IMG/VR virus record: IMGVR_UViG_3300035670_000770
Span: 1-34,250 of that record
Source of the DNA: a virus
Length of the DNA stretch: 34,250 nt
Direction: 5' to 3' (one strand)
In this document: one piece after another, positions 3,786 through 26,211 of the stretch
Layout: each line of letters starts with the position of its first letter
Numbering within the stretch: position 1 is the stretch's first letter
The notes under the pieces: model-generated
Told to the model about the DNA's origin: nothing
What the model saw: only the letters and a program-made list of their open reading frames with translations
The model's database searches: none
Program-made: the position numbers and the translations under genes

Positions 3786-4583
3786 CTATTCAGTCCAAAG
3801 TTCATTAAATCCAAAGTTATCATCTGGCTCGACTAAATTATCATCTAGTGTGTTAATAACTCCATCATTATTTAAGTCTTCCAGGGCTTTTGGAGTAGCA
3901 CTATATGTTACATATCTATTAGTGTTTATTGCAGTTCCAATATCAACATTAACCTTTTTAATTACTTCAGAAGTAGTAATTGGACCATAGATATAAGATT
4001 TTGCAGTAAATGTTAATGTATAAATAATAGTTCTTCTTACTCTAAAATCTCCTTCATACTCATCTTGAATTGATACATTATTTAATAAAATTGGAATATC
4101 TCTTTTCTCATCAGTTTCACTTACCATATTAATAGTAATTGAAAAATGCGGTTGAAAAAATGGAAGAATTTGTTCTAAAATTTGAACAGCATCATCATTA
4201 TTTTTACTAATAATTGCAACTTCAAAATCTAAATTGTATGGAACTGGCAAATAGTGACTATATGTTTTTTCTGCGTCTCCAGCTTTTGAACTTCTGCAAA
4301 TTTGTGTTGCACCAAGTTTTCTTGCTGGATCATATGAAATTCCTTTCATCTCAAAAGCAATTCTCGGCAATTGAATTTGAGTTGGTCTACGCTTATCTAA
4401 ATCTGGCTCTGCTTCTACTCTAGCCAAAAATTTTTCTGTTGGCCCATATGCCAACGGAACTTTAATAGTTTGCTTTACTGCTCCACCAGAGTCTTTTCTC
4501 TGAAGTTCTATATTATTAAATAGTGTACCAAATCCAATAATAGTTTTACGAATTGATTCGTTATAAAAATGTGTACCTAACAT
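3786..4583 (-). CDS. gp15: Tail completion and sheath stabiliser gp15
   Basis: The 265 residues fit the T4 gp15 length (about 272). The N-terminal MLGTHFYNESIRKTIIGFGT and the segments ARVEAEPDLD and LPRIAFEMKGISYDPARKL are characteristic of the family. Gp15 forms a hexameric ring on the tail terminus that stabilises the contracted or extended sheath and joins the neck. The ATG overlaps the gp14 stop as TAATG, so translation is probably coupled. The C-terminal stretch (residues about 230-265) is Asp/Asn-rich, with LNNDGVINTLDDN resembling a calcium-loop (dockerin or EF-hand-like) sequence. Confidence 0.93.
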   Translation of the reverse strand: MLGTHFYNESIRKTIIGFGTLFNNIELQRKDSGGAVKQTIKVPLAYGPTEKFLARVEAEPDLDKRRPTQIQLPRIAFEMKGISYDPARKLGATQICRSSKAGDAEKTYSHYLPVPYNLDFEVAIISKNNDDAVQILEQILPFFQPHFSITINMVSETDEKRDIPILLNNVSIQDEYEGDFRVRRTIIYTLTFTAKSYIYGPITTSEVIKKVNVDIGTAINTNRYVTYSATPKALEDLNNDGVINTLDDNLVEPDDNFGFNELWTE

Positions 4584-5680
4584 TAAAAGTCTCCCATGTT
4601 TGTATATTCACCAAATGGATTTCTTTCGGTCCAATCAACAATTTGATCTCCCTCGTCTTCAAACCATTTGTTCTCATTGAAGTCATCATTTTCATTTTCA
4701 ATAGAACTAAATGTGTTAATCACCCATTCAGCTCCACTAGTTTGACCAAGTATAGTTTCATTATCTATAAATGTTCCTACTATATCTATAAGCTCAAGCT
4801 CTAAGTTTGTCACGTCATAACGAATTACTTTTCCAGTAGCACCACTAATAGAACCAGTTACTAATTCTTCAAACTGATAAGTTCCAGTTGGAGCTAATAT
4901 TGCTTCTGCAGATGCACCAATACCAGAACCAGAAATAAACACAACTGGAGCACTGGTATAATTTATACCTGGATTAGTTACTTTTATTTCTGTTATAACT
5001 CCTCCAGACACAACAGCAGATGCAGATGCACCAGATGCTTCAATAACTTGCCCAAAGGTTATTGTAGTTCCAGATGCAGTATATCCAGAACCACCTGAAA
5101 TAACATTGATTTGTTTAATACCTTTAGTTAATTTAAATGTAATTGAATAACCTTCATCCCTTCTAATTTTATCAATTTCTGGAACTCCAGTCTCAAATCT
5201 TTCACTAGAGTCTTCCATTACCTCACATACTAATTGATATGTTGCAATCTGCCCTAATTGCCTAAATGGTTTATTGTGCTCAACAAATTTAATTTGAAAC
5301 AGTTGATTTGTCAGAGGAAAATAAATTGCATCACCCTCGTTTGGTCTTTCATTTGTAAGTAAATTATTAGAAGAAGAAATTAAATCTTCCCATCTTCTCT
5401 TTGATATTATAAATGTTGCTTCTTCTGAAATTCTAACTCCAAATTTACTTAATAAAGTTCCTTCTCCAGTAAATCCCTCATAATTAGAAACATACATCTC
5501 TATCATGTAATTTTCATCAAATAATGCTAATGGATCTTCTCTAAACAGCCTATCATCATTAGCAAATTCTCTTGGTAAATAATATACATCAAAACCATAA
5601 ATTTTCAAAGACTCAATAATTAAATCTTCATAGAGTCTTTGTTCTGATGATGTGCCGTGAGAGAAATAAACGTTTTTCAT
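4583..5680 (-). CDS. gp14: Neck protein gp14, enlarged by inserted beta modules
   Basis: Residues 1-190 match gp14: the start MKNVYFSHGTSSEQRLYEDL, the DVYYLPREF motif and the segment RRWEDLISS. Gp14 forms the ring below gp13 that connects head to tail. The protein is 365 residues against about 256 in T4. The excess lies at about residues 190-315, where two modules seen elsewhere in this window occur: a GGSGYT/GxNYTSAP module and an ISGATGKVIRYD/SGAEW module. The ending (WTERNPFGEY) returns to gp14 character. The start overlaps the gp13 stop as TAATG. Confidence 0.94.
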   Translation of the reverse strand: MKNVYFSHGTSSEQRLYEDLIIESLKIYGFDVYYLPREFANDDRLFREDPLALFDENYMIEMYVSNYEGFTGEGTLLSKFGVRISEEATFIISKRRWEDLISSSNNLLTNERPNEGDAIYFPLTNQLFQIKFVEHNKPFRQLGQIATYQLVCEVMEDSSERFETGVPEIDKIRRDEGYSITFKLTKGIKQINVISGGSGYTASGTTITFGQVIEASGASASAVVSGGVITEIKVTNPGINYTSAPVVFISGSGIGASAEAILAPTGTYQFEELVTGSISGATGKVIRYDVTNLELELIDIVGTFIDNETILGQTSGAEWVINTFSSIENENDDFNENKWFEDEGDQIVDWTERNPFGEYTNMGDF

Positions 5681-9191: not shown

Positions 9192-9428
9192 TTAGTAATT
9201 ACCGCAATTGATGGTTAACCCATTTCTTTCTATAATATTAGATGCAACCCAAGCATTTAAGTTTGAATCATATTGTAAAATAGCACCGTGAGAAGCATTT
9301 AAAGCATCAACATCAGATAAAGATGCTATTCTATTGGCAGTATTTGTTGCTAGTGTTATAACTTGAGGTTGATTTGATACACTAGTTTTAATTTGAGGAC
9401 TTTTTTCAAGTCTTACGTTTACGTTCAT
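9192..9428 (-). CDS. Small structural protein, unknown (78 aa)
   Basis: The protein contains IASLSDVDALNASHGAILQY followed by DSNLNAWVAS, a motif found in many phage fibre and baseplate proteins (the 'SDVDxxxxxxGxxLxYdxxxxxW' pattern). Here it makes up most of a stand-alone small protein. The start is well defined: CCAGGAG lies five to six bases upstream and the ATG overlaps the previous stop as ATGA. It is probably a minor virion or fibre-assembly protein made with the 110- and 810-residue neighbours. Confidence 0.72.
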   Translation of the reverse strand: MNVNVRLEKSPQIKTSVSNQPQVITLATNTANRIASLSDVDALNASHGAILQYDSNLNAWVASNIIERNGLTINCGNY

Positions 9429-9757
9429 GTTACTCCTGGATTAATAGTAACAATTCCCTCTAATACTCTAGTCTTTTTCCCATATTCATTTTCTATAAGA
9501 ATATCATATAAATACCTTCCCTGTTCAAGTAATGAAGTTTGGCTAGAATTTAATTCAAGTACTACAGTTCCAGTAGGTCGAGATGCGGCAAACGAAAGTG
9601 TAAAATTTACAGAGGTTGAACTATAGTATGATTTTTTTATTTTAGCTTCACCAGTGTATCCAGTCAAATCCCATGGAAGATTATTATCATCATATATGGT
9701 GATTTGAGCATTAAAATCAGAACCTTGGTCAATATACAGGTTTTTTACGGCTGCCAT
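9425..9757 (-). CDS. Conserved small virion protein, Ig-like or BppU-like (110 aa)
   Basis: The sequence MAAVKNLYIDQGSDFNAQI, then DLTGYTGEAKIKKSYYSSTS and RYLYDILIENEYGKKTRVLE, has the alternating strand pattern of a small beta sandwich. It resembles phage baseplate or fibre adaptor domains that begin with 'QGsdF' and contain 'DLTGyt'. The match is from memory and is weak as to function. It is the first gene of a late unit, with TATAAATA octamers 8 and 33 bases upstream of its ATG. No ribosome site sits at normal distance: the nearest GGGAGA is about 25 bases upstream, in the hairpin arm. Confidence 0.75.
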   Translation of the reverse strand: MAAVKNLYIDQGSDFNAQITIYDDNNLPWDLTGYTGEAKIKKSYYSSTSVNFTLSFAASRPTGTVVLELNSSQTSLLEQGRYLYDILIENEYGKKTRVLEGIVTINPGVT

Positions 9758-9764
9758 TTACTGG

Positions 9765-9772
9765 TATTTATA
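9765..9772 (-). promoter_or_regulatory. Perfect late promoter octamer TATAAATA, proximal copy
   Basis: The minus strand reads TATAAATA ending eight bases before the ATG at 9757. If used in the normal way (start about six bases beyond the octamer), the transcript would be almost leaderless. It directly abuts the inverted repeat at 9774-9810. Confidence 0.55.
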
Positions 9773-9773
9773 T

Positions 9774-9810
9774 AGAGAGGTCTCCCTAATATTTATAAGG
9801 AGACCTCTCT
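9774..9810 (-). terminator. Perfect 12-bp inverted repeat after the NblA-like gene, hairpin or terminator
   Basis: The arms are AGAGAGGTCTCC (9774-9785) and GGAGACCTCTCT (9799-9810), fully complementary, separated by a 13-base loop. It starts four bases past the stop codon of the NblA-like gene, where a terminator or 3'-end stabilising hairpin is expected. No U-tract follows on the minus strand, so classic intrinsic termination is doubtful. The loop contains a late promoter octamer. Confidence 0.75.
9790..9797 (-). promoter_or_regulatory. Perfect late promoter octamer TATAAATA inside the hairpin loop
   Basis: The minus strand reads TATAAATA exactly within the loop of the 12-bp inverted repeat. 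Initiation about six bases downstream would give a leader of roughly 26-28 bases ahead of the 110-residue gene, starting near GGGAGACC. This is the more plausible of the two octamers. Confidence 0.65.
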
Positions 9811-9814
9811 TAAA

Positions 9815-9973
9815 TTATTTTGGCAATAATAAATTTAGAACAGTTTGCTGTTGTGTGTGATACAATTTAGCAAACTCTTTGGCAATTTTTTTCGCATCTT
9901 GTTCATTCAATGTATCTATATCATTGTATATTTTTTGGAGCGTAAATTGCTTAGATAGAGGAAGATCGTTCAT
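9815..9973 (-). CDS. nblA: NblA-like phycobilisome-degradation adaptor (52 aa)
   Basis: The translation is MNDLPLSKQFTLQKIYNDID, TLNEQDAKKIAKEFAKLYHT, QQQTVLNLLLPK. It fits the NblA pattern: a short N-terminal tail, a [EK]QF.L.K helix, an acidic S/N-E-[QD]-[DA] turn, then a second helix with a [FL]...LY/R-Q segment and a hydrophobic C-terminal end. Against Synechococcus elongatus NblA as I remember it, QQFDLQK lines up with KQFTLQK and the two helices align without gaps. NblA (usually 50-60 residues) dimerises, binds phycobilisome rods and presents them to the Clp protease. Phage copies are known (Ma-LMM01 and marine cyanophages). The start overlaps the upstream gene by 23 bases with no ribosome site, so coupled translation is likely. 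The alternative is an unrelated helical hairpin of the late module. Confidence 0.68.
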   Translation of the reverse strand: MNDLPLSKQFTLQKIYNDIDTLNEQDAKKIAKEFAKLYHTQQQTVLNLLLPK

Positions 9974-10187
9974 TTAATTTCAATATAAGGTTTTTTATTT
10001 CATTTAGCTCGGACTTGAGATCCTGTAGCTCATTATCAATCCTATCAATTTTTTGAGATTTTGTCTGTCTCATTTGATAGCTTTTCATATACGATTCATA
10101 CTCATATATATTACTGTTTACGATGGCACCACTTTCAATATCTCGATAAAGACCTGGGTGCCCATCAACCATTACTTTTTTCATCAT
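9951..10187 (-). CDS. Small coiled-coil protein of the late operon, unknown (78 aa)
   Basis: An N-terminal segment, KVMVDGHPGLYRDIESGAIV, is followed by a strongly heptad-patterned C-terminal helix (about residues 45-73: IDRIDNELQDLKSELNEIKN and onward). The ATG ATG start overlaps the stop of the 2094-residue gene (ATGA), so it is coupled to it. The N-terminal sequence is one I associate with a conserved cyanomyovirus hypothetical, possibly a clip that trimerises on the tail. No defined function. Its 3' end overlaps the NblA-like start by 23 bases. Confidence 0.75.
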   Translation of the reverse strand: MMKKVMVDGHPGLYRDIESGAIVNSNIYEYESYMKSYQMRQTKSQKIDRIDNELQDLKSELNEIKNLILKLNERSSSI

Positions 10188-13100
10188 ACTGCCAATGCAA
10201 TTGCTCTAAAGTTTCTTATTTTGGGGATATTAGTTTGATCCCCACTAATCATACAAATTTTAATTGAATATTCTTTAAATTCAGTTAAATTTTTAGTTTC
10301 AAATTCAAATGCTCTATAATCATTGGAATTTGTTGATATTGGATATGATATTGCAGGAAGTTCAATGTAATCCATATCATCAAATTTACCTAGATTTCCA
10401 TCACCATTAATCTTAGCAAATACTTTAATATCAGAATATGTTCCGTTTAGACCTTGCTTTCTGACGCCATCTAGTAATACTTTAATAGATGTAGATGTAT
10501 TTTGGAGAGTTATTTTTTTGGTAACATATGAAGAATATGTTCCAGAATTTGGAGTCAATTCTGCAGATATATCTACATCACCATTTAGAGTTTTTTTACT
10601 AATTCTGTTACATACTGTAATTGCAGATGATCCAGTAACATCTATGATAGGACTGATGTTATCAAGTTCTGTAGACAATCTTAAATTGAATACTAGAGAA
10701 GAAGGTGTAGATGGGAAATATGCTGAGTTATTTGCACTAGATACCACAATTCTAGAAGTTGTTAACTCACAATATTGTTTATTTTCAACAGATTCTTCTT
10801 CAACTTGGGCAAATGATGTCTGTGGTGCATATAAACTGTTTCCAGTAATACTAGTAAAAGTTATACTCAAATCTGTAGATGGTAGTACAAGTGTATTGAT
10901 ATTTGGATATAGCTCTTCATATTGAATATTTCTAGATGCAGTTACAGAAGTTCCACCAGCAATTGCAGTAGAATTTGCTGTATTGGTGGCTGCAATTTCG
11001 TATGAATCAAGATCAATAACATTAGTAATTTTGTGAGTTTTGTTAATTTCAGTTAGAGGAATACCATTGATTGAATAACATTTGACAATAGAACCAATAG
11101 CATGAACAGTTGCTAAGCTTCCAGATACACCTCTTTCTGAAATTGTTAATGTGTTTCCAGAAATTGAAGTATACTTCATAATTTCACTGCCAATTAACAC
11201 ATAACCAGGATTGGTTGCAGATACAGGTAACCCATTGATAGTTTTCCAAGTAGTAGCTGTTGCATTTCCAACAGTTACATTACCAGTTTGAGATGCAGTT
11301 GTGATAGCAGTATTTAATGTAGTATTTGGAGCATCCGATGACACTGAATTTAGTTTTACATAATTCTGTATACTATTCATACAATGGTTTGGATGATATA
11401 CTTTAATAGTGGCAGAACCATTGGTGAAAGATAATGGATCTGAATTTAATACTGCACTTGGAATTGGATCATTTTTTAATTTACAAGTATAAGTTGAATT
11501 TGTAATAAATTTAGCTCTATTCATTACAAATTTGACATCTTCAAATTGATCTGGTGTCCAGGTAGACATATTCTGAGACTTGAATAATGATCCAGAATAT
11601 GGTTGCTTGTCAATAACAAATGATGTTAATATATCAGTTTCAGCAAGTCTAGAAATCCAAACTCTATATTCTGTAGAATCACTTTTAATCATAAATGCAT
11701 AATAAGTATCTTGATTTAGATATACAGGTGATGGGAAAGTAAATCTAGTTGCTACAGATGCATTGGCGGATACTTTTACGTTTGCAGCTTCTACGACTGA
11801 AACACTATATGGAACTACTGTTTCAGTAACAGTTCCATTTTCCATTGTTCTGATTTCTACTGAAACAGGAATAGATGAATCTTTGGATTGGAAGTAAAGA
11901 TCAATAGATGATATAAATACACCGCCCTCAAGATCTACAAGGAAAGACTGTGCAAGTGGATCTCTTCCTCCACCCCCACCTCTTGGTGGTGGAGGTGGTG
12001 GTGGATCTGGAACGAATACAGTTCTAGTCCCTTTAATAGGCGATGAAGTAATTTGAGGTACGTCTAATGATACAACATTACTAGTTAGACTGATTCTTGC
12101 TCCTATTGTATCATATATATTTTCTGCATTGGATTGAGAGATGCCATAAATTGATGTTCCTGTAATTTCATCACATAGTTTAAATACTGAAGTTCCAGTT
12201 TGATATGTGTTTGGGGGAATAATTAAAAACGCATTTACTGTACCAACTGAATTTGCCTTTATTCTTGGAGAAGTTAACGTTACAGTTCCAGTTGCACCAG
12301 ATTGATTTCCAGTTATTCTAAATGTAGATCCTAGAGACACTGGATTTAAGTTACTTCCATCAGTTGTTACAATATCATCAATACTCAAATAAGTTGATGT
12401 TGATGTATAAGAACCTAGTATATCAGTTGTAACAGTTGCAGTAATTAGATTCAAACCTTCAACTGTAGTTGTTATTTCTGGGCGTAATGTTACAGTCTCA
12501 CCAACCACAAAAGTCCCAGTTCTATTTGACATTCCTGTTATATTTTTAGGGAATATCATTGAATCATTTAATGAATCATCAACAAAAAAGTGGAATAATG
12601 TATTTGGTTTTAATTTAGTTGCAACTAAATTAACTATCCTAGATCTAATAAATTCATCGGATACAATACTATTAATACTATCACCAACTTGTATTTCTTG
12701 GGTTAGGGATGAAAATGTATTATTTACACCAGCTCTTTCTTGAAATACATTTGTACCACCACCTGTTCTGGCAGAACCAGTTGAAGTCCATCCGCCCCAT
12801 TGTTCACCAGCAGCACCGCTATTATCGAATAAGAATCTGATTGGACTTGCTAGATCAATCTGTTGGGTCTCTCTTTGAGTTCTTACAGTATCAAACCAAA
12901 CATCTTTGTTTGGATCTAAAATGAGTTCGCCATTCCATGAAATAACTTCAAATGGTTGTAGATTTTCTACTCTACTTGCGTATTGCTGAGTGATATATGG
13001 AACTTCAGTATATGGAAGTGTTACTAATGAACCTTTCTTTCTGGTTGTTGAAGATGAATCATAATTTAAATTAATGTTATTTACATATGGATATGGTCTT

Positions 13101-16100
13101 AATAATGCATTGGCTGTGTCAATGGACGCTGTATATTGGACATCATTTAAATTAGCCAGGGCAGTAGTCTTAAAATTGTCTACAATAAATCCAGTCTTAA
13201 ATCTATTATTTCCATCATCATCGACAATATTTAAACTATTGGTTCCAATTTCAAGTAAGTTTAGTGAAGTCAATGTTTCTACATTTTCTAGCCTTCTGTC
13301 AATTAAACCAATATCCTTCATTGTATATCTCTTAGACTGCTGTATATTCAATACAGCGTCAGAAGCAGATTTCATGTATGGTGGAATTGTTACTGTAGCC
13401 AGTAATAGTGCATTTTGAATACTTTCTGGCTCTTGTGGATTATTAGTTTCAGATCCTTTGATAGATACTAAATTACCGTTTTCATCTAAGAAAATTTTAT
13501 CAATTCTACCAAGGTAGTAATCATAATCTGCACTAACTACTTCACCAGGGAAAGCAAAGGTTGAAATGCTTCTGGTTAACTGGTAATAATTTAAAGCTGA
13601 TGCAGTTTCTTGGTATGGAATGGTTAATGATCCACCAGTTCCAGATGATGGTGTTGTTTCATATCTAAAGTCTACTATATCTGTATATGAAGTGCCATCA
13701 TATGCAGTTGGAATTTCTGCATAATCTACTTCTGTTGGATCATATGAATTAGCCGAATAAAAATCATTTGATATATTTGAATGATTGTAATAATCAAATA
13801 CAACAATAAATTTATTGGTTGGAACTGGTCGGTTTTGTATCTTTACTAGCTTAGAAATATTGTAAAATTCTGAGCTATCATTTTTTACTAATACATAATT
13901 ATTAGTAATATCTTTGTACTTTCCATAAGTTGATGCAGTTACAACTTTTCCAGAAATATTAAAATTAGATATAATATTTACACTAAGAGCTAATGAAGTT
14001 CCTTGTGGAAATTTATCTGCACTTAAGTAAATAACGTATAATGTAGTACCACTGATTGAAATAATTTTTGCTCTAATATTTTCATAAGTAATAATATCGC
14101 CTTCCTTTAAATCTGTTGCACTATTAATAACCAAAGAATCAAACATAGTTTGATTTGTATCTGTTGAAGCTAGTGCTTCGTGGATAGCGTGAACACGATA
14201 TACATCTGAAAATTTTAATGAAATTTCATTGTCACTAATTCTAGTTCCATATATTGTATTAGTTGAATTTTTTGACTTGGTAACTGATAAGAAATTAAAT
14301 TTATTAGCAGATTTAATTTTTAAAGTCGGATTATTTACTCTAGCTTTATATACAACAACAACTGATGTTCCACTTAAAGTAGAATCTACACTTAAGCTAA
14401 TACTAGTAGAAGAAATAACGGTAGCAGTAAATGCTACAGTTCCAGATGAATTTGTTACTAAAATATCAGATGCAGATAGGGTATAATCTGAAGTCGTTGA
14501 AATATTTACCGCACTCCCAGTAACAATTTTAGTTTCGGTAATAGTCTTGTAGTAAGATAAATCACTAACAGATTTTAAAACACTATTTGAAAATTTAGTG
14601 AAGAAATTAGTGCCAGAATTGCTTAATTTTGGTACTAATTTTTTAACATTATAGTAAGTTCCATTTGCAATTGTACCTGTAACAGTTACAGATGTATCTG
14701 AACTTACTGCAGAAATAGTTACCGTACTGGTTCCAATACGAAGTTTCATTGGAGCTTTTAAATCTTTTGTAAATGCAGTTCCAATTCCAGTGAGTGTATT
14801 GTTATTGACAGTAAAACTACTTCCAGTTATAGATACTTCATCTAAAAATACGTCTGCAGAAAATCCAGATGAAGTTTTAACATCTGTAATATTTTCAATT
14901 TTATTATCAACAACACTAGAAATAGTATACGTATTTAAATCTCTACTATTTGAAATAATAGAACCAGATAAAAATTGACCTGTAATTTGACTTAATACAA
15001 TAGTATTTCCACTAATTGATTCTACTACTGCTTGAGCACCATTAGAGGAAAAAACAAAATCTCCTGTCAATACAGTTGGTGTCGGTTGAGTAGTTACTAT
15101 AGTTGTAAATAAAGTTAAATCTGCAAGAAATAATTTTTCTCCCGCAATGAGTGAAAGAACTCTGGCTTTACCAATTTGAGTTTCTGTAGATCCTACAGTT
15201 TTATTAAGAACTAATGTTACTCCAGGTAATACCCCATTAACAATTGTTGATGCATTTAATCTTAAATAATTTCCAAATGAAGCAAGTGCACCTTGATTAT
15301 TAATAGATGAGAATTTTCTTGGCTTTTCAATTGTCAAATACTTTTTACTAGTGTTCTCAACTTGAAACCCTTTGACATATGATTTGAGTGGATCTAATTC
15401 TATTGTGTAATAATTAGTTGCATCAATAGCATCTCCATCTTGAGCAGTTGGAGTTCTGTTTAAAATCTTCTTTCCGTCTGGAAGAACGTCATTTATACTA
15501 TAGACTCCATTATTTTCACCATTGTTATATGTCTCTTTAACTCTAAGATTGACAGTGTTTATTGTATAATTTCCAGATTCATCATAAGTTCTTCTGGCTA
15601 GATTTTTTTCTAATTCATTGTAAACTGAAGTTTCTGTTTGCTGAATAAGTTTACCTTCTTCCAGACGCAATAGTTCGATAAATGTAGAATCTGCTGCAAA
15701 ATTAATGTCTTGTTTTGATAATACTGCTTCAATTTTTAATCTATCTGCACCTGGCGCTGTGAAATTAGATGATCCTACTGCATTATCATATAAAGAGGAA
15801 TCCGTGTCTGCATTTACAATGATTTCAGTTACAGATAATCCAATTTTATATGATGGGAAGTTAGAATACTGATCTAAAATAATTGTTTGTGATGGAACAT
15901 TAACAAAAAATCCCCTGAGGAAATATACACCTTCAGTGATAAATGCAGCAGAACCAGTAAAGTTAGTTGCGTTTTGAGTAGCAGTTACTGCAACAGGATT
16001 ATCTGAGGAATCTACTAATGTTTCATTGTTTGAGAATTTAGTTAATTGAGTGCCATTTACAATATTTCCAGATGAAATATATTTTACATATAATGTAGCG

Positions 16101-16468
16101 GTAGACTTTTCTGAATCAGTTGCACTGATACTACTTAAGACTTTTGCCGTTACATTACTAGTTAAACCTCTAATTATAGTTCCAGTTAAATTTTCCCTGA
16201 TATCTTCAAAACTAGTTGTACCAACAGTGGATTGTATTAAAATTGCATAATGCTGTAAATCATATCCTGCTTGTCCAGGAATTACTACAGACCCCTCTTT
16301 GAAAACATGCTGACCAAATTTTTCAATTTGATTCTGTAAAATCGACTGTAGAGTAGTTAACTCTCTAGCTTGTACTGGATAATTTGGCTTAAACAGCACT
16401 CTATAAAAGTTTTTATTTTCATTAAAATCATCAAAATATGGTTGCAAACTGAGATCTGTATTTTGCAT
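10184..16468 (-). CDS. Giant DUF4815-type virion protein (baseplate-fibre, gp9/gp10 position)
   Basis: The 2094-residue protein begins with a DUF4815-like region: DDFNENKNFYRVLFKPNYPV, then QARELTTLQSILQNQIEKFG and PGQAGYD. Many Ser/Thr/Val-rich beta repeats follow. At about residue 1490 there is a Pro run followed by a Gly run (PDPPPPPPPRGGGGG) and then the conserved DPLAQSF with a beta domain (ISSIDLYFQSKD, VSVEIRTMENG). A module at about 1750-1800 (YVLIGSEIMKYTSISG) resembles ones in gp7 and the 1082-residue protein. It lies after gp8, where T4 has gp9 and gp10, so a role joining fibres to the baseplate is likely. A late promoter at 16504-16511 and a GAAGG ribosome site precede the start. 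Confidence 0.85.
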   Translation of the reverse strand: MQNTDLSLQPYFDDFNENKNFYRVLFKPNYPVQARELTTLQSILQNQIEKFGQHVFKEGSVVIPGQAGYDLQHYAILIQSTVGTTSFEDIRENLTGTIIRGLTSNVTAKVLSSISATDSEKSTATLYVKYISSGNIVNGTQLTKFSNNETLVDSSDNPVAVTATQNATNFTGSAAFITEGVYFLRGFFVNVPSQTIILDQYSNFPSYKIGLSVTEIIVNADTDSSLYDNAVGSSNFTAPGADRLKIEAVLSKQDINFAADSTFIELLRLEEGKLIQQTETSVYNELEKNLARRTYDESGNYTINTVNLRVKETYNNGENNGVYSINDVLPDGKKILNRTPTAQDGDAIDATNYYTIELDPLKSYVKGFQVENTSKKYLTIEKPRKFSSINNQGALASFGNYLRLNASTIVNGVLPGVTLVLNKTVGSTETQIGKARVLSLIAGEKLFLADLTLFTTIVTTQPTPTVLTGDFVFSSNGAQAVVESISGNTIVLSQITGQFLSGSIISNSRDLNTYTISSVVDNKIENITDVKTSSGFSADVFLDEVSITGSSFTVNNNTLTGIGTAFTKDLKAPMKLRIGTSTVTISAVSSDTSVTVTGTIANGTYYNVKKLVPKLSNSGTNFFTKFSNSVLKSVSDLSYYKTITETKIVTGSAVNISTTSDYTLSASDILVTNSSGTVAFTATVISSTSISLSVDSTLSGTSVVVVYKARVNNPTLKIKSANKFNFLSVTKSKNSTNTIYGTRISDNEISLKFSDVYRVHAIHEALASTDTNQTMFDSLVINSATDLKEGDIITYENIRAKIISISGTTLYVIYLSADKFPQGTSLALSVNIISNFNISGKVVTASTYGKYKDITNNYVLVKNDSSEFYNISKLVKIQNRPVPTNKFIVVFDYYNHSNISNDFYSANSYDPTEVDYAEIPTAYDGTSYTDIVDFRYETTPSSGTGGSLTIPYQETASALNYYQLTRSISTFAFPGEVVSADYDYYLGRIDKIFLDENGNLVSIKGSETNNPQEPESIQNALLLATVTIPPYMKSASDAVLNIQQSKRYTMKDIGLIDRRLENVETLTSLNLLEIGTNSLNIVDDDGNNRFKTGFIVDNFKTTALANLNDVQYTASIDTANALLRPYPYVNNINLNYDSSSTTRKKGSLVTLPYTEVPYITQQYASRVENLQPFEVISWNGELILDPNKDVWFDTVRTQRETQQIDLASPIRFLFDNSGAAGEQWGGWTSTGSARTGGGTNVFQERAGVNNTFSSLTQEIQVGDSINSIVSDEFIRSRIVNLVATKLKPNTLFHFFVDDSLNDSMIFPKNITGMSNRTGTFVVGETVTLRPEITTTVEGLNLITATVTTDILGSYTSTSTYLSIDDIVTTDGSNLNPVSLGSTFRITGNQSGATGTVTLTSPRIKANSVGTVNAFLIIPPNTYQTGTSVFKLCDEITGTSIYGISQSNAENIYDTIGARISLTSNVVSLDVPQITSSPIKGTRTVFVPDPPPPPPPRGGGGGRDPLAQSFLVDLEGGVFISSIDLYFQSKDSSIPVSVEIRTMENGTVTETVVPYSVSVVEAANVKVSANASVATRFTFPSPVYLNQDTYYAFMIKSDSTEYRVWISRLAETDILTSFVIDKQPYSGSLFKSQNMSTWTPDQFEDVKFVMNRAKFITNSTYTCKLKNDPIPSAVLNSDPLSFTNGSATIKVYHPNHCMNSIQNYVKLNSVSSDAPNTTLNTAITTASQTGNVTVGNATATTWKTINGLPVSATNPGYVLIGSEIMKYTSISGNTLTISERGVSGSLATVHAIGSIVKCYSINGIPLTEINKTHKITNVIDLDSYEIAATNTANSTAIAGGTSVTASRNIQYEELYPNINTLVLPSTDLSITFTSITGNSLYAPQTSFAQVEEESVENKQYCELTTSRIVVSSANNSAYFPSTPSSLVFNLRLSTELDNISPIIDVTGSSAITVCNRISKKTLNGDVDISAELTPNSGTYSSYVTKKITLQNTSTSIKVLLDGVRKQGLNGTYSDIKVFAKINGDGNLGKFDDMDYIELPAISYPISTNSNDYRAFEFETKNLTEFKEYSIKICMISGDQTNIPKIRNFRAIALAV

Positions 16469-16503: not shown

Positions 16504-16511
16504 TATTTATT
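16504..16511 (-). promoter_or_regulatory. T4-type late promoter (AATAAATA) for the DUF4815 unit
   Basis: The minus strand reads AATAAATA directly after the gp8 stop codon and 35 bases before the ATG at 16468. The intervening leader holds GAAGG as ribosome site. It would drive the 2094-residue gene, the coiled-coil gene and the NblA-like gene. Confidence 0.7.
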
Positions 16512-24100: not shown

Positions 24101-26211
24101 GAAGATCTGTCATTAATAGTTACCAATTGATATGTTACGATATTTTTCCCCTCAACACTGGTAACTTGAGCATTAAATCCATTGCCTAGATTTCCATCGT
24201 TGTTTATTACTAATTTATCATTTACTTTATAATTTATTCCCTTATTTTCAATGATTACTGAGTTGATCTCGCCATAATTGTATTTTTTTGCAGTTAAAAC
24301 AGTTTTGTTTAATTTGTATGTTGTTTCTGGATTTAACTCAAAAACATCAGTGTAGTATAATGATCCACCATTAACGATGACAGGTTGAGATGGTAACGCA
24401 TGTAATCTAAAAATAATAGGAGATGTATTTCTATCTCCATTTACATATCCTTTGATGAAATAACTTACTTCTCCAGCAGTTAAACACTCTCTACCATATA
24501 AAAACACGTTGGTATTTGCATTTATTGTCAGTGACCCAGTAGTTGTCAAAGTACAATTTATAAACTGAGTAGATGTTCTGCTTTCATATTGAATAATTTT
24601 ATTATTTACAAATAATCTTCCTTTCTTTTGTGGAAAATTAAATGTACTATCTACCGTAATTGTAGAATTAGATGAATTTGTTACTACAGTCGATTGAGTG
24701 GCAATAGTTGAAGAAGGTAAGTATAATTTGTTGTAATTTAATTTACCATCAATCTCAAATTCATATACATTATCTCTTACTCGTGTAATTTCAGAAATAT
24801 CTAATGAAGTTCCTGGAATTTTATTTGTAAGATCTCTTGATTGCACCAATTCAATAAAGTTAACATTATCAAGATCTTTTATTGAACTATAATCTTGCAG
24901 TAATTCACATCTAATTATTTTCTTTTCATAATATGTAGCAGAAGAAGGTTTAATTAGATAATTTTTTGGATACTCTACTTCAGGATCTTGTGAAATAGTT
25001 TCAATGGATGGATTTCCTTCTTTATTGATATCTGTAACTGGATATGCTTTTGCAATAAATGATCTTGGGGCTTCTTCACCTTCTCCAATGATTCTATCGC
25101 CAATTCTAAAATAACCAACAATATCAGTTAATAAAAGTTCGTCTGCTCTAGAATCCCAACTATCTACTCTTGCAGTTCCAGTTGTAACGCCATTCGCATT
25201 TTGATTGATTATTTTCTGTCCTTGTGTGAATGATCTATCTCTAATTCTTGCAGTGATTGGACCAATATAATTTTGTCCAGCATTGACAACTTGAACGGAT
25301 GTAATAGTTCCAGCTGAAGTCATTCCAGTGACAATCATTTCAGCACTTGTTGGAACTTGATTAAGTTGATTAGGCGATCCAGTTCCAGAACCAAGAATAT
25401 CAATTATTGGAGGAGATACTAAATTTGACAAATTATCTATTTCATAATAATAATTAGATCCACCAGAAACTAGTTGAAATCCACTAATACCTCCATCATA
25501 ATTTAAAATCTCAATCTTTGCATCTCTTCCACCAGGAACGAGTTTTAATTTCAGCTTCTTATCATTAAATAAAATTCGGAAAAATAGCTGATGCGATTGC
25601 TCACTGCCTTTTGCTAGATAAAAAGATTTAATATTTTTTAAGAATGATGATATATTAAGTTCTTCAGTTAATACTTCTGGTAATGATGGTGATATTTCTG
25701 ACCTAATTCTTCTGAGGAACTCCATAACAAAGGAGTGTCCAATATTAATAACTTTTGAATGAATAGTATGTTGATCTGCTGCAGAACCAGTATTGTATGT
25801 AATTTGATTGAATGGACTACTTTCCAATACAAATGCACTAGTTCCCCTAACACAATCTACAAACTGAGTCTGAGTTTTTGTCCTGTAGAATATAATTTCA
25901 TCATCAATAGATACATACCCATTCTTTTCTGGAAACCCAATAGTGCTATCTACAGAAATTGTAGTATCTGAAGCACTTATTGTTGCGGATAATAATGTAG
26001 ATTCAATTAACTTGTTTGGATGATAATACCCAATATTGTAATATTCAATGAAATTTTTTACAATGTCTAGATACCCATATCTAGACTCTTGAGATTCGTA
26101 ATATGAACTTAGAAAAGATACAAATTTTGGATTATTTTCTATTACAAAAGATGGAAGTTGATTTTCAATTAATGTAGAAATATCTACAATCTTTTCCTTT
26201 AAACTGTTCAT
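18184..26211 (-). CDS. gp7: Giant baseplate wedge protein gp7
   Basis: The 2675-residue protein has a gp7-type N terminus (residues 1-60, with NNPKFVSFLSSYYESQES; later VMEFLRRIRSEISPSLPEVL and YLAKGSEQSHQLFFRILF). T4 gp7 has about 1032 residues, so this one is much larger. A 'STIxVDSTxxFPxxxG' module at about 81-125 recurs at about 505-555. Several GGxNY/GxGY modules lie between about 240 and 900. A tandem array of about 14 beta repeats spans about 1235-2380, and the C terminus returns to GxGY modules and ends in a DIIEYTNI...GCTR segment. It starts in an ATGA overlap with gp6. No frameshift is seen. Gp7 links the wedge to the hub periphery; the array probably forms an extended arm, by inference. 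Confidence 0.88.
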   Translation of the reverse strand: MNSLKEKIVDISTLIENQLPSFVIENNPKFVSFLSSYYESQESRYGYLDIVKNFIEYYNIGYYHPNKLIESTLLSATISASDTTISVDSTIGFPEKNGYVSIDDEIIFYRTKTQTQFVDCVRGTSAFVLESSPFNQITYNTGSAADQHTIHSKVINIGHSFVMEFLRRIRSEISPSLPEVLTEELNISSFLKNIKSFYLAKGSEQSHQLFFRILFNDKKLKLKLVPGGRDAKIEILNYDGGISGFQLVSGGSNYYYEIDNLSNLVSPPIIDILGSGTGSPNQLNQVPTSAEMIVTGMTSAGTITSVQVVNAGQNYIGPITARIRDRSFTQGQKIINQNANGVTTGTARVDSWDSRADELLLTDIVGYFRIGDRIIGEGEEAPRSFIAKAYPVTDINKEGNPSIETISQDPEVEYPKNYLIKPSSATYYEKKIIRCELLQDYSSIKDLDNVNFIELVQSRDLTNKIPGTSLDISEITRVRDNVYEFEIDGKLNYNKLYLPSSTIATQSTVVTNSSNSTITVDSTFNFPQKKGRLFVNNKIIQYESRTSTQFINCTLTTTGSLTINANTNVFLYGRECLTAGEVSYFIKGYVNGDRNTSPIIFRLHALPSQPVIVNGGSLYYTDVFELNPETTYKLNKTVLTAKKYNYGEINSVIIENKGINYKVNDKLVINNDGNLGNGFNAQVTSVEGKNIVTYQLVTINDRSSIKFTTSNDHGLTIGDKVKFNNFLTTQTVYSVISNTEFAIENLSNLTNLNIAGLTYITNSKTASGSIDKITITNRGKNYTKLPEVIEFVTENGYGALVQLNSDNIGELNNFQYSSIGNELIGNKLTQYPVVIPTTAKIINNFQIASILVVNGGLNYNPTTDVVKVNGAVNPYCEFNIITSSGIITEVQVIRGGFNFSSIPTITIDSAFGAGVVLEARIKRKILEENDVLSFGSFESGNICKVVHFDVPSSSVEYYVISGNISNNDIIYTKDGNVYGNIVSIKTASAYCTPSPYASYSYKFLDNFGFVSDSTQRIIDSNYYQDWSYTLVSQRNTSEWKNQVIQNTHPAGYKVFGKYRIENSKKLFERQEDSFNSSVLFKATLSNVAGLNLKLSSCNTQTVYVDNYSAFSIGDFVFGNFSGAVGLIVSIKDNYIEIQSLNNKSLILNEYLFTVSRNFASLGIADTNLYFIFYSGILQKPGSSYYISNSNFIPTFNLNSSDEIIAHELDTEFTIVDYIVDGNKLALVKDNLSFIPNSYENILISINGVIQAPTYTLSGNTITLSQTIQSSDSVFILYHEQLKALTFSGSGTNYSINYSPSSSCNLLLFANSVSQSQLLTDFSVAGNQIVLSESVASSDIFGWYIDETISCYIIDPVTVNTNKILQLNNCTIKKVTQYIESNSVKTPDSVYKITKNLLDGTVYSGTDNNTVYGLDTKFKYTSPEYSTSYVEVLNKITFNGSSKTFNLTYADGLPYVPVNGESSLLVTINNEVLDHDQYSLTGSSITFVQTYISTDTCTVIDFNSKYLANTTNLKSAILDRLNVSQNSSRKTFNLSDRGVPQYVTNIADIFTIKNGILSKPTSQSHVINNNKITFTVAPNLSDVVKLAYFNRQLEPEKTKNVLLDSFTCLDGIQDTFPISIDGILFAPISAQHLIVIVSGVHQKPGIDFTITGSSIQFASPLLAEDQVFVYYSYDGLNQNFAIDSFRMYDGTETRFGLTSNYISSSVYSSSHLQVIKNGLYQYPELDYTIEGLVNARNIKFTIPPVLTDAINITNYSAQDLVNITDRFTQLNPSSLQYTSQSPIVDTTVFLVYVNGVLQVGNSWSFNSGTNVLSFANFVSLTLDQVCILAFTNAKRVIDPITFAIGTNTYNLTINGSVITTDLPVSKSDLILSLNGTDIINPSLYTISGSTVTLLDPSLISGDVIYIYQIGSFSYQTEIIDNLNDDYSKSTYKLQVDYKSFNAPSVSDILVLRNGVVQNPTEDFTITNGSITFTTNITADDDIYLDYRHGSSEIAISNISGVSITLSTTILPSQYKDLVLYINGVPQFYENNFTISGNVVTLSSLVTIDSIFAILYAPITYIDSLDNCPDGVRTKFRLLYNDQNLISSDIIEDADVLVSVNGVIQYPGVQYTISANRGQIEFLIAPQKTDDIFMIRMYDNKVINLTSVSGSTTVYDLSHPISSPDQENLVIFSNNTWKFNELTDYTYTTTSRITLASTNTSAYVFGIKFAGIFHLLDQINTPYNGVTTKFNLFLDEENFVSPGTIENNSTPSDSSIIVVKNGKILDPGIDYTLIGDIKSQINFTIAPIQSDIISVKCVGSFTKLLSITSGFGGKVYNLKNQTNSPYYPNAVINRPRPHENQIVVIKDGNIQSPLYDYYIDNNQLIFNSNITATKLVVLDFKGTSEDMKVDNVMYQVNVGDQIFIGGETTSRTVTEIVSSTVLKTSPYTGTSSTGFVATGVSINGKLSEIIITNGGTGYRHPVILRTIGSGYGAKATAPVNYKLGGKIESPVTIQYPGYNQYAPQRIVPTSYIFAETQTPLSTSSITIGTKLTSNITATTEIIPVANAQNFEESDITINITSSSGSSATFRPFISNGRVRKVQVLTQGIGYDDRDVELTVIGGGGSGCVLNPVLDAMGRVTSVEVKNSGEGYDTFRAIISTDIIEYTNIVSNELVGCTRLSSSTTHNQGDIIYFDKFI
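19072..22505 (-). repeat. Tandem array of ~14 diverged ~80-residue beta repeats in gp7
   Basis: Each unit contains a core [ILV]-x-V-x-x-N-G-V-x-Q-x-P, then D-[FY]-T-[IL]-x-G followed by [ST]-I-x-F/L and D-x-[IV]-x-[IV]-x-Y. Examples are ILISINGVIQAPTYTLSG, DILVLRNGVVQNPTEDFTIT, DVLVSVNGVIQYPGVQYTIS and SIIVVKNGKILDPGIDYTLI. Units are separated by about 80 residues. Boundaries are approximate, and repetition is at protein level only. Confidence 0.8.

Follow-up and report, generated by a model that had tools for sequence, protein, structure and literature searches.

NblA binds both phycobiliproteins and ClpC, delivering the phycobiliproteins to the Clp protease (PMC7966870, PMC4103541). A small open reading frame at the end of a tail-gene unit in a T4-like cyanophage, which a first-pass annotation of the sequence had read by eye as NblA, raises the question of whether such a protein is encoded among virion genes, and what it would do there. 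According to papers that cite Nadel et al. 2025, phage NblA matters ecologically for photosynthesis in the ocean, and the late tail-operon position offers a direct way to ask if degrading the antenna is useful at the end of infection too. We consider it likely that this gene encodes a divergent phage NblA, which would be made late, would pass phycobiliproteins to ClpC-Clp and is probably carried as cargo.

Gene order and conservation at the locus

The minus strand of the window, meaning here the whole 34,250-base viral record that was analysed, encodes tail, neck and terminase proteins of the T4-like cyanophage type. The features of the locus, all on that strand, are as follows.

9815..9973, minus strand: NblA-like gene, 52 aa (ORF with ATG start, 52 codons)
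9951..10187, minus strand: coiled-coil gene, 78 aa (PHROG 473 'virion structural protein', E 7.9e-24), overlapping the NblA-like gene by 23 bases
10184..16468, minus strand: DUF4815/VrlC-type structural gene, first of the unit (PHROG 358; homologues annotated VrlC or DUF4815)
9425..9757, minus strand: LtfC-like / L-shaped tail fibre assembly gene, downstream neighbour (PHROG 1084, E 4.2e-29; PHROG 3304, E 1.4e-27)
16504..16510, minus strand: ATAAATA, resembling a late promoter, 42 bases ahead of the DUF4815 start codon (motif search, unmapped)
9774..9810, minus strand: 15-bp hairpin immediately past the 3' end of the NblA-like gene (RNA folding energy -26.5 kcal/mol, z -6.1)
9790-9797, minus strand: TATAAATA motif in the apical part of the hairpin (motif search)
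9765..9772, minus strand: second TATAAATA motif, before the LtfC-like gene (motif search)

The NblA-like reading frame is a real, conserved gene. There are 27 relatives in IMG/VR, and since 26 of these contigs (67-86% identity; the 27th is more distant) encode it with an identical start codon, a chance ORF is excluded. Substitutions are synonymous in their overwhelming majority, with a dN/dS of approximately 0.04-0.07 (0.04-0.06 against relatives for the pairs where it is computable; group median 0.066), and a median pN/pS of 0.11 when the first 8 codons, which form the overlap part, are left aside. The gene order is likewise fixed: DUF4815/VrlC, coiled coil, NblA-like gene, then nearly always the LtfC-like gene. 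The coiled-coil gene overlaps the DUF4815/VrlC gene by 4 bases and lies upstream of the NblA-like gene in 27/27 relatives, and the LtfC-like gene lies downstream in 26/27. The first-pass annotation had described the locus accurately, both in the extent of the 52-residue gene and in its place among virion genes, where it closes the DUF4815 unit on the 3' side; the overlap with the coiled-coil gene that it singled out is typical of the close group, and ranges from -1 to 23 bases among other relatives. Elsewhere in the window, residues ~182-283 of a gp14-type neck (head closure) protein (4583-5680, minus strand) match repeats of tail fibre and baseplate proteins, which suggests that the matching region is an inserted domain.

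The ATAAATA motif that precedes DUF4815 is also found 41 bases before the gp8 start by motif search. On the window's minus strand there are only two TATAAATA sites, both between the NblA-like gene and the LtfC-like gene, the second directly after the hairpin. The hairpin and this motif recur in most relatives, where the hairpin is conserved with a few two-sided changes, but the covariation term is small. With its hairpin and TATAAATA motifs, the segment at 9765-9810 may serve both as a transcript end and as a late promoter, and these motif matches suit a late unit of DUF4815, coiled coil and NblA-like gene followed by a new late promoter.

Relationship to NblA at the family level

The N-terminal motif of the window protein reads L-P-L-S-K-Q-F, against the conserved L-x-x-E-Q-x-F; the hydrophobic residues, Q and F are retained, and the EQ pair, invariant in the NblA set used, is replaced by SK. 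Proteins of the window group end without the extension that many NblA proteins have at the C-terminus. Searched alone, the window protein has no PF04485 match in Pfam, its top match being an irrelevant family (E 0.018). PDB sequence searches returned only irrelevant helices and no NblA structure, and an NCBIfam search gave no useful match. At the level of the group, NblA draws matches from more members (7/15) than any other of 24,736 Pfam families, with a best E of 0.0012 and nearly the full profile covered in those inspected. No member reached the curated PF04485 cut-off of 25 bits, the best scoring 19.7.

The window-group profile scored 26.3 against an NblA profile built from cyanobacterial, podoviral and Ma-LMM01 sequences, a score reached by 0/1000 column permutations; the reversed-profile control scored 17.6, and the neighbouring coiled-coil and slot families 10-12. 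When the NblA HMM was run over 3,808 ORFs, the NblA-like gene fell within the first 15 places, with the window copy at place 15 (entered on the minus strand as 24278-24436, which is 9815-9973 in plus-strand numbering). The window protein also aligned locally to S. elongatus NblA, whose reference sequence is identical to PDB 3CS5, with z = 4.1 and 11/2000 shuffles as good.

An AlphaFold model of the window protein (mean pLDDT 87) has helices at 6-20 and 24-49, and the model of a cyanobacterial NblA control has them at 11-24 and 29-56; the 52-aa protein, of a length within the roughly 50-65 aa typical of NblA, is thus predicted to be a helix-turn-helix laid out like the control. Searches with the window model by Foldseek (PDB, BFVD) and VIA-align gave no matches. 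Because Foldseek with the NblA control finds no NblA structures either, that search says nothing on the window fold.

A bridging cyanobacterial paralogue

We searched the window-group profile against 244 cyanobacterial genomes. The best match, to residues 1-48 of 52, was a 57-aa protein (MSDLPVEKQFTHMMFCQQIQNIDIDSAKQLLTELHMLYLGQQ...) at E 9.9e-4, a value at which a chance match over 244 genomes is expected about a quarter of the time. The telling part of this match is the nature of the protein matched, rather than the E-value. It lies downstream of apcB-apcC on the same strand (genome G194), these being the genes of an allophycocyanin-type subunit (PF00502, E 3e-56) and its core linker (PF01383, E 8.7e-13), and the best Pfam family of the matched protein is itself NblA (E 9.5e-4). 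Moreover, this genome encodes a second such protein with 65% identity to the apc-linked one, and this paralogue clears the PF04485 threshold with 28.3 bits. Alignment of the window protein gives z = 11.9 with the apc-linked protein and z = 8.0 with the cut-off-passing paralogue; in both cases 0/2000 shuffles did as well. Pairwise BLASTP of the bridging paralogue against Nostoc-type NblA gave no match, so the link to NblA runs instead via the paralogue that passes PF04485. Profiles that contain the bridging sequences are partly circular, as those sequences were chosen as the best match; the Pfam group matches, the permutation test and the 3,808-ORF HMM ranking were made without them.

The window motif LPLSKQF, which stands in place of LSLEQQF, is nearly common to the apc-linked paralogue (LPVEKQF), and for this reason the alteration suggests a trait of the lineage and not decay. 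Considered together at the level of sequence, the NblA reading holds for the family: the window group is genuinely, if remotely, related to NblA. The relationship originally proposed from the likeness of KQFTLQK to QQFDLQK, which itself exceeds chance, is borne out by the profile comparison, the intermediate sequence and the permutation test, and the expected two-helix layout is reproduced in the model. The proposed comparison with PF04485 gave a divided outcome, in that 7/15 group members match the family but all fall below its cut-off, and the window protein alone is unmatched. The low PF04485 scores explain why the gene escapes automated annotation, as had been anticipated.

The apc-linked, divergent NblA paralogue lies on the reverse strand of locus L402 (1501-1674). 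Close homologues occur in two other cyanobacterial genomes, and two of the three genomes have a second copy (L413, L414, L421, L422). A host NblA was also sought in the 'family' of genome G089, and this search was rejected: a control found phycobilisome proteins in 0/191 genomes, and the matches from the group resemble RNA polymerase and other housekeeping genes. The group is evidently non-photosynthetic, so no inference on host NblA is drawn from it.

Distribution among cyanophages

The window protein matches PHROG 27081 (E 2.6e-9), as do 32/32 members of the family alignment. In S-SM2, Bellamy, SynMITS9220M01 and the freshwater S-SRM01, too, a homologue comes after VrlC and the coiled coil, in the slot that the gene takes in the window. 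The locus is shared between marine and freshwater phages and is not special to this phage, a correction to the first-pass annotation, for which its position stood out. The survey of cyanomyoviruses that it proposed places the family elsewhere in genomes as well, with one clear copy away from the slot in S-TIM5, S-SCSM1, S-SCSM2R, S-B05, S-SKS1, Sf-FS3, DSL-LC03, S-CRM01 and Sf-CH8. All confident isolate matches are cyanophages recorded on Synechococcus, and none is recorded as a Prochlorococcus phage.

A comparison in 2010 did not observe nblA among marine T4-like cyanophages (PMC3037559). Since then, the S-SCSM1 gene and seven cyanomyovirus homologues have been predicted as nblA by HHpred, that of S-TIM5 having been predicted earlier (PMC9602691), and the S-SCSM1 and S-SCSM2R homologues carry an NblA annotation. 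Phage NblA genes are therefore already known, and the window gene is an unannotated, divergent member of a predicted cyanophage NblA family. A divergent and mostly unannotated NblA branch thus occurs in T4-like cyanophages, and surveys based on PF04485 consequently undercount this branch.

The majority of other cyanomyoviruses have an unrelated small helical protein after the coiled-coil gene, exemplified by S-CREM1_170 (L309, 23728-23925), whose reading frame overlaps that of the coiled coil at this position in S-CREM1. Proteins of this family are 58-65 aa long and highly conserved, and are found in 292 phage records, including Prochlorococcus phages. As a candidate homologue of the NblA-like protein, the slot protein was rejected (hhalign probability 0.2%, score 8.6-9.4).

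Proposed role and alternative explanations

We infer that the NblA-like protein would bind phycobiliproteins and deliver them to ClpC-Clp of the host, with phycobilisome degradation as the outcome. It is probably a dimer, as is NblA, whose two copies form a four-helix bundle. As the last gene of the DUF4815, coiled coil and NblA-like unit it would be expressed late with the tail proteins, an expectation founded on the T4-type late-promoter-like motif at the start of the unit and the hairpin at its end. Its variable genomic position and single copy suggest that the product is probably cargo rather than an obligatory virion part. Late antenna degradation would then free amino acids and lower light capture during virion assembly, presumably to the benefit of the phage. 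A more specific reading, which we put forward tentatively and regard as possible but rather doubtful, is that the gene belongs to the NblA lineage through shared ancestry with the apc-operon-linked paralogue, and that its placement in a late virion unit times antenna removal, or a retargeting of ClpC to another protein, to assembly and not to early takeover. The apc-linked paralogue is a lead on the origin of the phage branch.

The position between virion genes in a fixed order could instead mark a small tail-assembly or virion protein proper to the slot, whose likeness to NblA is that of a short helical hairpin only; S-CREM1 indeed has a different small helical protein there. That slot family is unrelated to the NblA-like family, however, and the nine other cyanomyoviruses with one clear copy carry the NblA-like family far from the locus. 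In S-SCSM1 the locus itself lacks an NblA homologue, and the GenBank entry places the virion-protein label on VrlC and the downstream tail fibre protein, but not on the NblA homologue or the coiled coil, although for a protein of 54 aa its absence from a proteome is weak evidence. We thus find a slot-specific tail protein unlikely. That the likeness arose by chance between unrelated two-helix proteins is highly improbable: the window protein alone does lack a PF04485 match, but the permutation, reversal and shuffle controls stand against coincidence, and the genome-wide search converged on an NblA paralogue.

A further alternative is descent from NblA with a changed target, in which the protein would bring another host protein to ClpC, or block ClpC or host NblA, in place of degrading phycobilisomes. 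Its sequence lies well away from those NblA proteins that have been tested, and the altered N-terminal motif is the part reported as ClpC-binding (PMC4103541). Most of this altered motif is nonetheless present in the paralogue beside phycobilisome genes, and selection against amino-acid change is strong, as suits a protein with an active function, whichever that may be; we judge a changed target to be quite improbable. The reading we prefer remains that of a divergent NblA acting on phycobiliproteins.

Comparison with known systems

The S-CREM1_170-type protein is similar in size to the window protein and sits at the same place, but has no detectable sequence relationship to it. NblA genes of T7-like cyanophages (S-TIP37, S-RIP2, S-SRP01) and of Ma-LMM01 are phage-borne and share the role proposed for the window gene. 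Unlike the window group, they match PF04485 at or near the cut-off, and their surroundings differ, as the podovirus copies adjoin an exonuclease gene and the Ma-LMM01 copy lies among nucleotide-metabolism genes, neither being among tail genes. In S-TIP37, S-RIP2 and an uncultured phage, NblA-type frames that overlap or follow the exonuclease gene were seen without an annotated gene (L174, L175, L177; ~1500-1700).

Cyanobacterial NblA (PF04485; 1OJH, 2Q8V, 3CS5) has the same length, two-helix layout and LxLxxQF pattern as the window protein, and an above-chance profile similarity to it. The window gene differs in scoring below the curated threshold, in having S-K for E-Q in the N-terminal motif, and in its LYxxQQ motif of helix 2, which the apc-linked paralogue also has. 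The closest comparison is with the PHROG 27081 isolates (S-SCSM1 ORF237, S-TIM5, S-SM2_101, Bellamy gp115, S-SRM01), which form one family with the window group at 25-38% identity. Relative to these isolates the window group has a shorter N-terminus and an LPLxKQF motif closer to that of NblA, and its gene is followed by a hairpin.
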